Source: Cytobacillus oceanisediminis 2691 (GTDB lineage Bacteria > Bacillota > Bacilli > Bacillales > Cytobacillaceae). Taken from it: a stretch of 64,000 nt of DNA. Made by a program: the position numbers and the translations under genes. The notes beneath the pieces were generated by a model. The model searched no databases and was not told where the DNA came from. It saw nothing but the letters and a program-made list of their open reading frames with translations. Below, one piece after another: positions 57,324 through 64,000 of the stretch (its first letter is position 1; each line of letters begins with the position of its first letter). The stretch covers positions 4,935,501 to 4,999,500 of the forward strand of contig NZ_CP015506.1 in assembly GCF_000294775.2 (NCBI RefSeq), written 5' to 3'.

Positions 57324-57842
57324 ATGTTTAAAGGCAATTCTTTCGCTATTGTTTTTGCAGTAGTTATTCTTTTATTTATTATATTCTCTTCAACTCAGTC
57401 CTTAATTGTCAGGATTCTCTTTATCTTGCTTTCCATCCTGTTTTTAATTCCAGCTGTAAGGAAGATTTTATTTACGAATTATATAGTTCTTAGAAAATTA
57501 AAAGTATCACTATTTACTTCATTAACATTCACGTTCGGATTATTTTTAATAGAATCCTTATCTGCTTTTAATGAAACAGCTATGAATGATTTCATAATTA
57601 CGGATTTAATGTTTATTATTTATTTTAGTTTATTTTTCATTTTAATATATGGTCTTCCTGTTTCTATGATTGCAGAGTTTATTTCAACCCGAATTCCGTA
57701 TAACCGTGCACTGGTTTCTGGAATAATCCATGTTGGATTTGGCTTAATGACTTTTTTAATCTCTATCCCTTTTGATTTAATGGCGTTGATTTGCTCCGTT
57801 ATTTTCTTTGCATTGGATGAAATCTCTAGAAGAAAGTTATAA
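57324..57842 (+). CDS. Predicted multi-pass membrane protein of unknown function
   Basis: A 172-residue protein with five or six hydrophobic segments (about 7-25, 28-46, 62-80, 93-115, 130-150 and 152-166) and a basic end (EISRRKL). The start ATG is preceded by AAAAAAGGATG. I do not recognise the family. The long hydrophobic run and lack of polar motifs suggest a small integral membrane protein with no obvious enzyme activity. Its neighbours are an LCP gene and a region of decayed sequence. Confidence 0.65.
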   Translation: MFKGNSFAIVFAVVILLFIIFSSTQSLIVRILFILLSILFLIPAVRKILFTNYIVLRKLKVSLFTSLTFTFGLFLIESLSAFNETAMNDFIITDLMFIIYFSLFFILIYGLPVSMIAEFISTRIPYNRALVSGIIHVGFGLMTFLISIPFDLMALICSVIFFALDEISRRKL

Positions 57843-61058: not shown

Positions 61059-61472
61059 ATGAACCCATGTTTCAAACTGAAAAGATGGCTGAAACATTGA
61101 GTGAATCAGAATACAGTGAATGGACTTTATATCTTGAAAACAGCATTGACTCGGAGCAGGAATCCCTCCATAATACTTTTATCTATATTTGTCGTTTTAT
61201 CTACATATGCACGAAGAATGAAAAACATAAGCCACTTTAAGGAAATAGTCGACAGATTTGGCGAAAGAATTATTCAGTATCCTTTATACCCGCATATTCT
61301 CTCCCTTTTATATAAGGAAATAGGAACCGCTGGAGCGATTGAACAGGCTGTGGCTTTTGCCAAAGATGCCTTACAAAAGTTGCCGAATCAGGTAGGCGTC
61401 CTTCATAATTATGCTGAGGCCATTATTCATGCGAGAGAGAACGGATCTATTCTGGGAATTCCTTTTAAATAG
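61059..61472 (+). pseudogene. Frameshifted gene, TPR-like fragment
   Basis: An ATG at 61059 with GGAGG five bases upstream gives only 13 codons. The coding sense passes through a second frame (MFQTEKMAETLSESEYSEWT) and then a third from about 61155, ending in FKEIVDRFGERIIQYPLYPH, LLYKEIGTAGAIEQAVAFAK and LPNQVGVLHNYAEAIIHARE. The last part has helix-turn-helix spacing and A/L/Y positions like a tetratricopeptide repeat. At least two shifts break it. Function unknown. Confidence 0.65.
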
Positions 61473-61529
61473 TTGAATATTTAAAGAGCTTATGGTAAAG
61501 CTGATGATAGCAGTAAAAAAACCAAGCAT

Positions 61530-61628
61530 CTACAGGTTTTCAGACTTTAACTTAGAAATGGATTGATCGATTTCCTGCTTAGCTTCATCAAAACTCTTTT
61601 CAGTGATGGCAATTTTGTCAGAGAATAC
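61530..61628 (-). pseudogene. C-terminal gene remnant (coiled coil)
   Basis: The minus strand reads FSDKIAITEKSFDEAKQEID followed by QSISKLKSENL and a TAG stop at 61530. It looks like the end of a helical protein whose upstream part is gone; the plus strand decayed gene begins right next to it. The family is not recognised. Confidence 0.45.
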
Positions 61629-61634
61629 CTGTGA

Positions 61635-62146
61635 TGATTACCGAGGAAGAATTACAGGATGCAGGACAAATCATCAATAGTGTTATTCATTTATCTCCAC
61701 GATATGCTAAGTTCTATTGTACAAGAGGATGAATATTTGCTGCACTGGGAAGGTTCATTTTCAATAGAGGAACTGCAAAAAAATCATCAGTTCTTCAGGG
61801 AAAATGTGCAGGAATTGCTCCAGGCGAACCGGAATAAGCTGAACACTCCGGAGGGGTATGGAATTATAGACGGTTCCCATGAAGCTGCAGATTTTCGGAA
61901 TATGGGCATATCCCGCTTATAGCTGTGAATAAAATCCTTTGGCTGTCTGATGGTTTAAAGCTGCATTCCCATCGAGATTCGGACCAGGAGGAAACCTGGC
62001 TTACAACAGCAAAGGTGGCCTTTGAAAAGGGGCTGGATGATTTGGAGAAAAATATTCTGAAGCTTGAAGAATCCGATCCTGCCTGCTTATTTTATCCAAG
62101 GTTAAAACAGCACGATGATAAATCAGGCATCTTGATAGAGTTGTAA
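61635..62146 (+). pseudogene. Frameshifted gene of unknown function
   Basis: The coding sense begins MITEEELQDAGQIINSVIHL at 61635, moves into another frame near 61700 (SSIVQEDEYLLHWEGSFSIE and QKNHQFFRENVQELLQANRN, ending DGSHEAADFRNMG), and moves again near 61905 to read HIPLIAVNKILWLSDGLKLH and EETWLTTAKVAFEKGLDDLE up to the stop at 62146. Two shifts are needed, and the pieces join smoothly, so this was one protein of about 170 residues. I do not recognise it. Confidence 0.65.
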
Positions 62147-62259: not shown

Positions 62260-62427
62260 TTATATTTGGTTGTAATAGATATTAATTTCTTTCAGGTCTC
62301 TATGTATCGCTTTTTCACTTACATCGAATAGTTCTGCTGCCTCTTTCTTTTTTATTATTTCCCCTCGATTCAACATCTCAAATAGAGATAAAATCCGAAT
62401 CGTTTTCGTTATTGCTTCTTCAATCAC
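62260..62427 (-). CDS. Small helix-turn-helix protein, probably a truncated regulator
   Basis: About 55 residues from a GTG at 62427 with AAGGGAG upstream, reading MIEEAITKTIRILSLFEMLN at the start. The segment GEIIKKKEAAELFDVSEKAI followed by HRDLKEINIY is a DeoR/HTH_11-type winged-helix DNA-binding half, as found at the N-terminus of YafY/WYL regulators. The usual C-terminal sensor domain is absent because the frame stops after NQI. It is either a truncated regulator or a stand-alone HTH protein. It lies between decayed genes and the quorum-sensing pair. Confidence 0.6.
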   Translation of the reverse strand: MIEEAITKTIRILSLFEMLNRGEIIKKKEAAELFDVSEKAIHRDLKEINIYYNQI

Positions 62428-62448
62428 CTCTTTTACTCCCTTCTCCAA

Positions 62449-62888
62449 ATTGTTTTTAAGGAAAATAATAACATATTTATAGTTATTTTATAATATATTT
62501 AACTCTTTTTTTATCTTTTAAACTTTATTTTAATACGAATTTTAAATCAGTTTATGAAACATAATAAATTTTCGAGTGAGTGTACGCCCTAAATTTACTA
62601 GTAATCCAAAATATAATTCAAAGATAAATTAAACAGACATCCAATTTAATACCATTTACTTTCACCTAGTAAATCTATTACATTATTATTACAAAATTCT
62701 AAATTTTACGTTTGATTTTGCACCGGTTACAGGAATTTAGAACTATTATTTCGCCAAAAAAGGCCCTTTTTTGACTCTTTCCGTTAATTATTTATCTTCT
62801 CTAACAGAACATAAGTCGCAGAGGATTTGAAAAACAGTTGATGAAAGTGGAAATTTTGGCATATTATTATAGGAAAGGAGGGAGAGTT
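62449..62888. other. Intergenic region upstream of the PlcR-like regulator
   Basis: A 440-base, very AT-rich gap. It should carry the promoter of the regulator gene. I looked for the PlcR box type palindrome (TATG-N8-CATA) and did not find a convincing one. The GGAGGGAG ribosome binding site at 62877-62884 is clear. An ATG at 62838 is in frame but has no ribosome binding site. Confidence 0.5.
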
Positions 62889-63776
62889 ATGAGCATTGCT
62901 GAAATTAGTTTTGGAGAAATACTCCAGGCTCTTCGGGAATACAAAAAGCTGAGCCCTGAGGAGCTGGCTAAGGGAATCTGCACCGTAGAGGACCTTTATT
63001 CATTTGAAAAAGAAAAAAAGTATCCTGCACTCGACCAGCTTTATGAGTTAGCTGAAAAACTGAATGTCGAAGTAAATTACTTTTTTCACTATGCCTCCTC
63101 AAGTACGTTTAATTATGTAACCGCTGTATTTGAACTGATAAAAAAATACAAGCGGGAAAGAAACTACCAGGCTATCTATGACATTATTAAAAGAGAACGG
63201 CAAAATCCCATCTTCAAGCATATTTCCCACAAACAGTTCTTAATGTGGCATGAAGGAATTTGCATCTACTATTTAAGCAAGGATGTCTATAACTCTGTTA
63301 ATACACTTTATACAGCAATCGACTTAACGAACCCTGATCGTACGAATCTTTCAGAACGGGAAATTGAAATCCTGACAAGCATTGCGATTATCAGATTTGA
63401 GGAAGAGGAATTTGCTGTGGCAAATGATATTTTCGAAGAAGCCCTCAAAAACCTCGAATCCTTGCCACATATCCTTGATCCCAAAGCAAAACTAAGGATT
63501 CTCTATGGCCTCTCTCAAACCCTATCAGCCAGAGAACAGTACGAAAGTTCCCTGCAATACAGCAACCAAGGCATCAAGGACTGTATTAACAATGAACTTC
63601 TTTATTTATTTGGGGAATTTTACTATCAGTCTGGGGAAAATTATATAAAGATAGATGATGTGGATAAAGGAATTGAATATATCAATAAGTCTAAAGAAGT
63701 CTTTTTACTCCAAAACAACGAAAGATTCGTAAAATTAGTGGAAGTCGAACTAGAAAAACTACTAGAAAAATGTTAA
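62889..63776 (+). CDS. PlcR-like RRNPP-family quorum-sensing transcriptional regulator
   Basis: A 295-residue protein from ATG at 62889 (MSIAEISFGEILQALREYKK, GGAGGGAG upstream). Residues 1-65 form an XRE-type helix-turn-helix (LSPEELAKGICTVEDLYSFE followed by KEKKYPALDQLYELAEKL). Residues about 75-295 are all-helical with TPR-type repeats (CIYYLSKDVYNSVNTLYTAI, IRFEEEEFAVANDIFEEALK, GLSQTLSAREQYESSLQYSN, YQSGENYIKIDDVDKGIEYI). The length and plan fit PlcR (about 285 residues), whose TPR groove binds the PapR peptide. The 47-residue peptide gene 41 bp downstream is the expected partner. Which genes it controls is not visible; NprR-like or AimR-like roles are alternatives. Confidence 0.9.
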   Translation: MSIAEISFGEILQALREYKKLSPEELAKGICTVEDLYSFEKEKKYPALDQLYELAEKLNVEVNYFFHYASSSTFNYVTAVFELIKKYKRERNYQAIYDIIKRERQNPIFKHISHKQFLMWHEGICIYYLSKDVYNSVNTLYTAIDLTNPDRTNLSEREIEILTSIAIIRFEEEEFAVANDIFEEALKNLESLPHILDPKAKLRILYGLSQTLSAREQYESSLQYSNQGIKDCINNELLYLFGEFYYQSGENYIKIDDVDKGIEYINKSKEVFLLQNNERFVKLVEVELEKLLEKC

Positions 63777-63817
63777 TATTTTCTTGTTGAATATTAAAAA
63801 CTGAAAGGATGGTAGTA

Positions 63818-63961
63818 ATGAAAAAGTTTTTTGCTACTGTAACTTTAGCCCTATCTGTTTTTGCTTTAGGTGCTGTTTTCTCTGGCGGTGCTGCTACTGA
63901 TGGTCTTCCTACACAGCATAGCCCACAATTTTCCACAATGGGGCTGCCTACACAGCACTAA
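63818..63961 (+). CDS. Secreted signalling-peptide precursor with duplicated GLPTQH
   Basis: A 47-residue protein. It begins MKKFFATVTLALSVFALGAV, a standard Sec signal peptide with an AA-type cut near GGAA. The mature tail is short and contains GLPTQH twice: after the Asp at residue 28 and again as the last six residues, with SPQFSTM between. AAAGGAT lies at the right distance before the ATG, and 41 bp separate it from the regulator stop, so both are probably on one transcript. The layout equals PapR of the PlcR system (48 residues, active C-terminal heptapeptide). The two hexapeptide copies differ at three codons, all synonymous, which suggests selection to keep the peptide. Confidence 0.85.
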   Translation: MKKFFATVTLALSVFALGAVFSGGAATDGLPTQHSPQFSTMGLPTQH

Positions 63962-63968
63962 TGTTTAG

Positions 63969-63997
63969 AAAAGCACTTTCTTCACGAAAGTGCTTTT
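63969..63997 (+). terminator. Terminator after the signal-peptide gene
   Basis: A perfect 12-bp stem, AAAAGCACTTTC / GAAAGTGCTTTT (63969-63980 and 63986-63997), with a TT end at the window edge. It closes the regulator-peptide unit. Confidence 0.9.
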
Positions 63998-64000
63998 TTA

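Follow-up and report, generated by a model that had tools for sequence, protein, structure and literature searches.

A PlcR-like regulator and a putative secreted precursor carrying two copies of GLPTQH: a probable quorum-sensing pair

The sequence comparisons described below indicate that two adjacent genes at the right-hand end of a 64-kb stretch of DNA (the window; C1:4935501-4999500 of a 5.85-Mb genome) very probably constitute a PlcR-like quorum-sensing pair of the RRNPP type, in which the hexapeptide GLPTQH would be released twice from each precursor. The quorum-sensing function itself we infer with high confidence from the regulator, from the recurrence of the precursor beside its closest homologues, and from the conservation of the repeated hexapeptide.

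The regulator gene lies on the forward strand, from an ATG at 62889 to a stop codon ending at 63776, and encodes a protein of 295 residues that was assigned an N-terminal HTH and five TPR helix pairs on the basis of an RNPP_C match, similarity to PlcR, and an AlphaFold2 model. It is separated by 41 bp (63777-63817), within which a Shine-Dalgarno-like AAAGGA can be read at 63804-63809, from a second forward-strand reading frame (ATG at 63818, stop ending at 63961) encoding a putative secreted pheromone precursor of 47 residues that has a counterpart downstream of the closest homologues of the regulator. The precursor begins with MKK and a hydrophobic run (hydropathy 2.44 over 11 residues), and a signal peptide was predicted from hydropathy only, with an approximate extent of 63818-63895. 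The hexapeptide GLPTQH occupies residues 29-34 (63902-63919) and 42-47 (63941-63958), the second copy being the exact C-terminus. A predicted intrinsic terminator hairpin on the same strand, with a 15-bp stem and a T run (63966-64000), had a folding energy of -18 kcal/mol (z -6.5 against 200 shuffles); this hairpin was absent from the output of simple terminator scans. The elements named in the preliminary description, namely the regulator, the 41-bp gap, the 47-residue frame with its ribosome binding site, the terminator, and the two copies with the second at the C-terminus, are thus all present between 62889 and 64000. The two copies are written GGT CTT CCT ACA CAG CAT and GGG CTG CCT ACA CAG CAC, which differ in three codons, all synonymously, again in agreement with that description. 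When residues 21-47 were shuffled 200,000 times, only one shuffle contained a second copy of its own C-terminal hexamer, and the same layout is found in the closest homologues; by these tests the GLPTQH repeat and the layout are beyond chance.

The 41-bp gap and the terminator suggest that regulator and precursor are probably carried on one transcript. A consensus scan gave a sigma-A-like promoter candidate, TTGATG-18-TATTAT, at 62838-62867 (forward strand), which is weak when taken alone because nine such sites were found in the 64-kb stretch against 6.1 expected; by eye, similar TTGATT or TTGATA...TATTAT sequences lie upstream of four orthologues of about 70% identity (L037-L040). Further upstream, 61067-62146 contains several short reading frames in different frames, three of which were tested and had no Pfam match, and resembles a decayed gene region; a 62-residue frame on the reverse strand (62260-62448) has a DeoR-type HTH (PF08220) as its only domain.

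The kinship of the regulator to PlcR was apparent from domain, structure, and profile comparisons. The Pfam domain RNPP_C (PF18768) scored 76 bits against a cut-off of 26.5 (E 3.8e-21), and HTH_3 scored 22.8 bits, slightly below its cut-off of 23. PlcR-like members of the RRNPP group are expected to have an N-terminal HTH followed by five TPRs in 250 to 500 residues, and the regulator has this organization, judged by its length and by the helices of its model (mean pLDDT 90.1, pTM 0.72), which, as we read the helix list, are compatible with an HTH domain, a set of five TPR pairs, and a cap. The best match among PDB sequences was PlcR, with an E value of 4.1e-14 for the single sequence and 4.2e-23 for an alignment of 29 rows. 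When the profile was extended to 55 rows (alignment A2, composed of 54 of the 58 named loci and the window), the PlcR chain 2qfc matched it at E 1.8e-40 over profile positions 1-291 of 293. The earlier designation of the regulator as PlcR-like was therefore upheld by the RNPP_C match, by PlcR being the closest solved structure by sequence, and by the near-full-length alignment. Together with the adjacent putatively secreted precursor, the RNPP_C domain, the HTH with five TPRs, and the homology to PlcR are features expected of the PlcR-like RRNPP branch. The nearest regulators in named organisms, at 68-72% identity, belong to four organisms, all of them Cytobacillus species.

Regulator homologues at E <=1e-10 were detected in 35 of 36 genomes of the genus, and 74 were recovered from the fetched stretches. 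All of the 29 closest (E <1e-80) are followed by a secreted-looking reading frame that contains an xxPxxH hexamer 2 to 16 times and starts 22-59 bp after the regulator in 28 of the 29 (the start in L058, the same locus as L129, is at +44). Outside the genus but inside the family, we fetched 36 loci with homologues at E <=1e-95, some identical with loci among the 58 named ones, and a secreted-looking xxPxxH frame was located downstream in all 36; at least two full copies were present in 34, one full and one partly masked copy in L186, and one copy in L203. The ligands across these relatives include GLPTQH, PLPTQH, GIPSEH, DLPSQH, GYPVQH, DYPSQH, WYPSQH, and EMPTQH. Single-copy relatives among the named loci end exactly at the motif (GLPNQH in Priestia megaterium, DLPDQH in Metabacillus), as do the precursors of all 15 single-copy relatives in the tree described below.

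More distant homologues presented a different picture. Of 43 second-tier homologues in the genus, a set that leaves out L083_0 and L038_1 for want of an assigned start, 16 have a divergent single-copy precursor instead, with ends such as ELPTIF, ELPSVH, and TLPFEH. The precursors of these 16 (in L065-L090) lie upstream of the regulator in divergent orientation, and their ends, which also include ELPSMH, ELPFEH, and DFPDQH, are nearer to PapR in appearance than many of the multi-copy ones. Tandem second-tier receptors in L204-L207 had a downstream precursor in none of eight cases; no precursor was detected by the filter used in the distant named loci L147, L149, L156, and L160, and L152 has a reading frame that lacks the motif. 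The expectation that homologues would be followed by a small frame with a conserved end was thus borne out for the closest homologues inside and outside the genus, but not for many distant ones, which have a divergent precursor or none. Homologues in genome contigs were detected with an alignment query and not by a scan with the single protein. As for mobile elements, 19 plasmid records matched at the protein level (the best at 52% identity) along with two weak phage matches, and no plasmid matched the locus at the DNA level. One of the plasmids, from Cytobacillus oceanisediminis (L223, NZ_CP062791.1), encodes a homologue with a downstream 54-residue precursor that carries GYPTQH twice and is annotated as a hypothetical protein.

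We constructed a maximum-likelihood tree of 87 receptors, with long branches flagged. Of 123 receptor loci, 15 with no precursor by the filter were left out of the counts: 13 distant ones (L146-L154, L156, L158, L160, and L161) as well as L192 and L193, which failed the lysine filter (they begin with MNR) yet carry multi-copy DLPSQH precursors. Merging of identical receptor-precursor pairs reduced 108 to 78. L186 was counted as single-copy, its second copy being masked, and the counts for L171, L177, and L178, which run off contig ends, are minima. All multi-copy systems were placed in one clade of 63 rows (support 100/99), every member of which has at least two copies (L186 partly masked), and the 15 other precursor-bearing rows have one copy each. 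With the tree rooted at its midpoint, a root chosen for drawing only, the repetition would have had one origin, and no reversion to a single copy was seen among the 63 rows (one masked). The distance between regulator and precursor was 19-63 bp in multi-copy systems (n = 62) and 41-303 bp in the others (n = 16, including L186). Four genomes (G021, G012, G023, and G030) contain two multi-copy systems each with different ligands (L037/L063, L038/L064, L058/L047, and L053/L061, respectively), which look like two private channels, for example one with sixteen copies of GLPTQH and one with three of GIPTQH.

Copies within the same precursor were compared in 62 unique multi-copy precursors with 322 copies; pairs of copies are not independent, and the figures that follow are descriptive and not probabilities. 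Codon differences between copies of the hexapeptide were synonymous in 1973 cases and non-synonymous in 51, whereas the corresponding figures for the flanks were 401 and 1074 before the hexamer and 505 and 776 after it. Two of the six positions are dictated by the search motif and a third is restricted by it; a fair comparison uses the remaining three, at which 935 synonymous and 51 non-synonymous differences were counted. Copies of one precursor were 97-100% identical at the six positions, the adjoining residues reached 58% on the N-terminal and 77% on the C-terminal side, and more distant positions reached 30-52%; in a looser recount 314 of 326 stretches sharing at least four of the six residues were exact. 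These patterns argue that selection is acting on the hexapeptide while the flanks drift.

The same comparison bears on whether more than one copy is used. One could envisage that a single copy is active, the C-terminal one here, and that the additional copies are by-products of repeat slippage without an effect on dose. Copy number differs widely between close relatives (16 in L037, 6 in L038), as expected from slippage, the C-terminal copy is the sole one in single-copy relatives, and recombination between repeats could keep the copies alike. Homogenisation alone is insufficient, however, since the internal copies are equally constrained (51 non-synonymous of 2024 differences) while the spacers drift. 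Furthermore, a tail extends beyond the last copy in 28 of 59 complete multi-copy precursors, so that no C-terminal copy exists there, and the 63-row clade shows no return to a single copy, one row being masked. We therefore regard the explanation by one active copy as quite unlikely.

We examined which residues would make up the mature ligand. The residue preceding the hexamer (offset -1) is D or M in the two copies of the window and S, E, or H in L037 and L038. Ten copies in the latter two loci are fused directly to the preceding copy (QHGLPTQH), and no private seventh residue is possible where the spacer is missing. The poor conservation at offset -1 and the fused copies together favor GLPTQH itself, which is the likely mature ligand, and make the pair of heptapeptides DGLPTQH and MGLPTQH unlikely. 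The preliminary description had allowed for either the hexapeptide or a heptapeptide with Asp or Met in front, and for two copies that either double the yield or provide two related ligands. The hexapeptide remains as the likely signal and one ligand made twice as the likeliest use of the copies; the heptapeptides, and with them two related ligands, are disfavored by the fused copies and by the identity at offset -1 (58%, as opposed to 97% at the first hexamer position). A ligand of another length, whether the pentapeptide LPTQH or the two heptapeptides, would be compatible with the report that LPFEF activates PlcR and the heptapeptide does so slightly better (PMC6568020). The presence of Ala at offset -1 in 222 of 322 copies also suggests that N-terminal cleavage at a fixed site may take place in many relatives. 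The pentapeptide is opposed by the 97% identity of the first hexamer residue among copies of one precursor, and the heptapeptides by the variation at offset -1 and the fused copies; on balance, a ligand of another length is not probable, though it deserves some weight. Across the clade, Ser or Gly follows 256 of the 322 copies, and Ala before with Ser or Gly after would be a plausible cleavage pattern; the copies of the window lack the Ala. If the copies in the tailed precursors are used, a cut after His must occur, given that a tail follows the last copy there.

Covariation between receptor and ligand was analyzed in 78 pairs over 295 receptor columns. Among the columns tracking peptide position 5, R91 ranked first and E243 third of the 295. 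In a HMMER alignment counted by hand, these residues correspond to Lys89 and Gln237 of PlcR, which together with Tyr275 are reported contacts of Glu6 in PapR7 (PMC6568020), and Glu6 is in the same register as peptide position 5. Of 57 receptors with Gln5 peptides, 56 have R91 and 56 have E243, whereas all 15 receptors of Glu5 peptides have W91, and all 15 have N or S at 243. R91 and E243 are among only four columns that set the Glu5-type clade completely apart. The column of the third PlcR contact (Tyr275, F280 in the window) ranked 226 of 295, and Lys87, named in an earlier model, aligns with R89, a nearly constant position (R in 73 of 78). Two of three contact columns would fall within the first three ranks with a naive chance of 2e-4. 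The switch between Gln and Glu represents essentially one event and one apparent reversal (L190, which combines a Gln5 ligand with a Glu-type pocket), and the covariation is consequently supportive and not proof. The loss of an acidic receptor residue where the ligand turns acidic makes chemical sense, and the proposed placement of Gln5 against R91 and E243 in the TPR groove is supported by these comparisons.

The covariation also argues against a different role for the precursor, for example as a secreted antimicrobial or metal-binding repeat peptide that the regulator merely controls. The hexamer does end in His in 78 of 78 unique precursors, as might be expected of such a peptide, though the search motif itself demands His. 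The receptor residues that covary with position 5 lie at PlcR-PapR contact sites, single-copy precursors have PapR-like ends (LPxxx), and four imperfect copies lack the His. We consider this explanation highly improbable. In the quorum-sensing interpretation that we prefer, the precursor would be exported by the Sec route, as its signal-peptide-like start suggests, and extracellular proteases would free GLPTQH, copy 2 by one cut and copy 1 by a second cut after His34. An oligopeptide permease would then re-import the peptide; the genome encodes 11 SBP_bac_5 proteins, which indicate a capacity for such import only. GLPTQH would enter the TPR groove of the regulator with Gln5 against R91 and E243, and the bound peptide would, by analogy with PlcR, switch DNA binding of the HTH domain. 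Two identical copies would yield two ligand molecules per precursor.

We searched for the sites at which the regulator might act. No PlcR box (TATGNAN4TNCATA) with up to one mismatch was found between 61012 and 64000, so neither the regulator's nor the precursor's promoter has the box that marks PlcR proper; the window contains a single exact match, at 57581, and seven matches with up to one mismatch compare with 5.2 expected. A perfect palindrome, CAAAAAAGG-C-CCTTTTTTG, is located at 62755-62773, about 115 bp before the regulator, and recurs nowhere else in the genome, even when two mismatches are allowed; it was not among the best dyads of the relatives. A shared operator was also sought among inverted repeats upstream of 72 regulators, and by eye no dyad was common to the multi-copy clade.

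Just past the right end of the window, a second PlcR-like regulator (L006:4036-4911) is 31% identical to the first. By the filter, the only precursor ending in the motif within 900 bp of it is the GLPTQH precursor of its neighbor, and all 12 other intact paralogues adjacent to multi-copy systems likewise lack a precursor of their own. One further second-clade paralogue, beside a system with six GLPTQH copies (G012:C31:186909-187748), contains in-frame stops. The sequence AAATATAACTTTAAGAATATTT lies just upstream of L006:4036-4911, and similar stretches precede many second-clade paralogues in relatives; a conserved stretch resembling AAATATAACTNTANGNATATTT was seen upstream of many second-clade paralogues (both by eye). 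As a regulon motif the AAATATAACTNTANGNATATTT-like stretch was discarded, with one exact site in the genome, its own, and, weaker sites included, 16 in total against 16 in a reversed control. The second regulator is followed by a gene for a LysM-NlpC/P60 cell-wall hydrolase (L006:5060-6085). A full-length gene of this kind is close by in 11 of 31 loci compared, two of which (L112 and L113) look alike, and in L106 and L107 it follows the precursor immediately, the second regulator being absent. No shared promoter motif was found for these genes by eye; from its position, the LysM-NlpC/P60 gene is the best-placed candidate target.

The resemblance to PlcR-PapR that had been claimed from the layout holds for the layout, the regulator, and the LP-type peptide. 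As in that system, the pheromone gene is downstream of the regulator (PMC9765709), the regulator is homologous over nearly its full length with an HTH and five TPRs, the C-terminal peptide contains LP, and two covarying receptor columns align with PlcR contacts of PapR Glu6. Unlike PapR, in which a single C-terminal heptapeptide, ADLPFEF, is active (PMC6568020), the precursor has two copies of GLPTQH ending in His, and the locus has no nearby PlcR box. PlcRa-PapRa of B. cereus likewise combines a PlcR paralogue with a secreted precursor, and no PlcR-like palindrome is reported for the PlcRa targets; in contrast to the present pair, papRa is upstream of plcRa, the precursor has 93 residues, and one signaling heptapeptide is named, CSIPYEY, which is internal and not C-terminal (PMC3519770). 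RRNPPA propeptides with repeated pheromones ('chatterers') have been described: 3 of 15 atypically large PlcR propeptides contain repeats, and a single mature peptide may be present up to six times (mBio 2022, PMC9765709). Duplicated Phr propeptides of two phage systems (Rap3T and Rap105) give rise to active pheromones released by extracellular proteases, with up to eight copies mentioned (PLoS Biol 2024, PMC11343458). In contrast to the 'chatterers', every row of the 63-row clade is repetitive (one masked), with up to 16 copies, although an overlap of the published PlcR repeat propeptides with this clade is possible; the receptor differs from the phage Rap receptors in having an HTH DNA-binding domain and being chromosomal. 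The preliminary description had called the pair new, which may hold for the ligand and the receptor clade but not for repetition, some of it in PlcR systems, as these two papers attest. The 34 high-confidence clusters obtained with RRNPP_detector include 21 new subfamilies (PMC10075063), and a term search of PMC12700828 found none of the words Cytobacillus, Priestia, and Mesobacillus. Among the matches listed from the open PMC literature, judged by title and the start of the abstract, the clade's ligands are not described; searches with the hexamer strings matched only the part LPTQH, in papers unrelated by title, and Cytobacillus is not named among those listed for quorum sensing or RRNPP. 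The ligands of the clade, the copy number of up to 16, and the receptor-ligand covariation are thus new as far as searched, and the group is a PlcR-like clade with apparently obligatory repetition and His-ended hexapeptides.

A broader reading joins these observations: the precursor would be an obligatory 'polyprotein' in which repetition had a single origin, at the base of the 63-row clade, and was lost in no member seen, copy number (2 to 16) would be a fast-evolving gain dial, and the pheromone-less paralogue L006:4036-4911 would hear the same peptide and control the adjoining LysM-NlpC/P60 hydrolase. We put this forward as speculation that is more likely wrong than right; if it were true, one repeated signal would drive two receptors. 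Across the related receptors, a short signal occurs in a natural series from one copy to 16, which allows a direct test of why pheromones repeat, be it for dose, diversification, or drift, and the Gln/Glu switch at position 5 with its matching receptor changes is a ready test of ligand specificity. The comparisons also name ligand candidates for environmental Bacillaceae, including Cytobacillus, Mesobacillus, Robertmurraya, and others.
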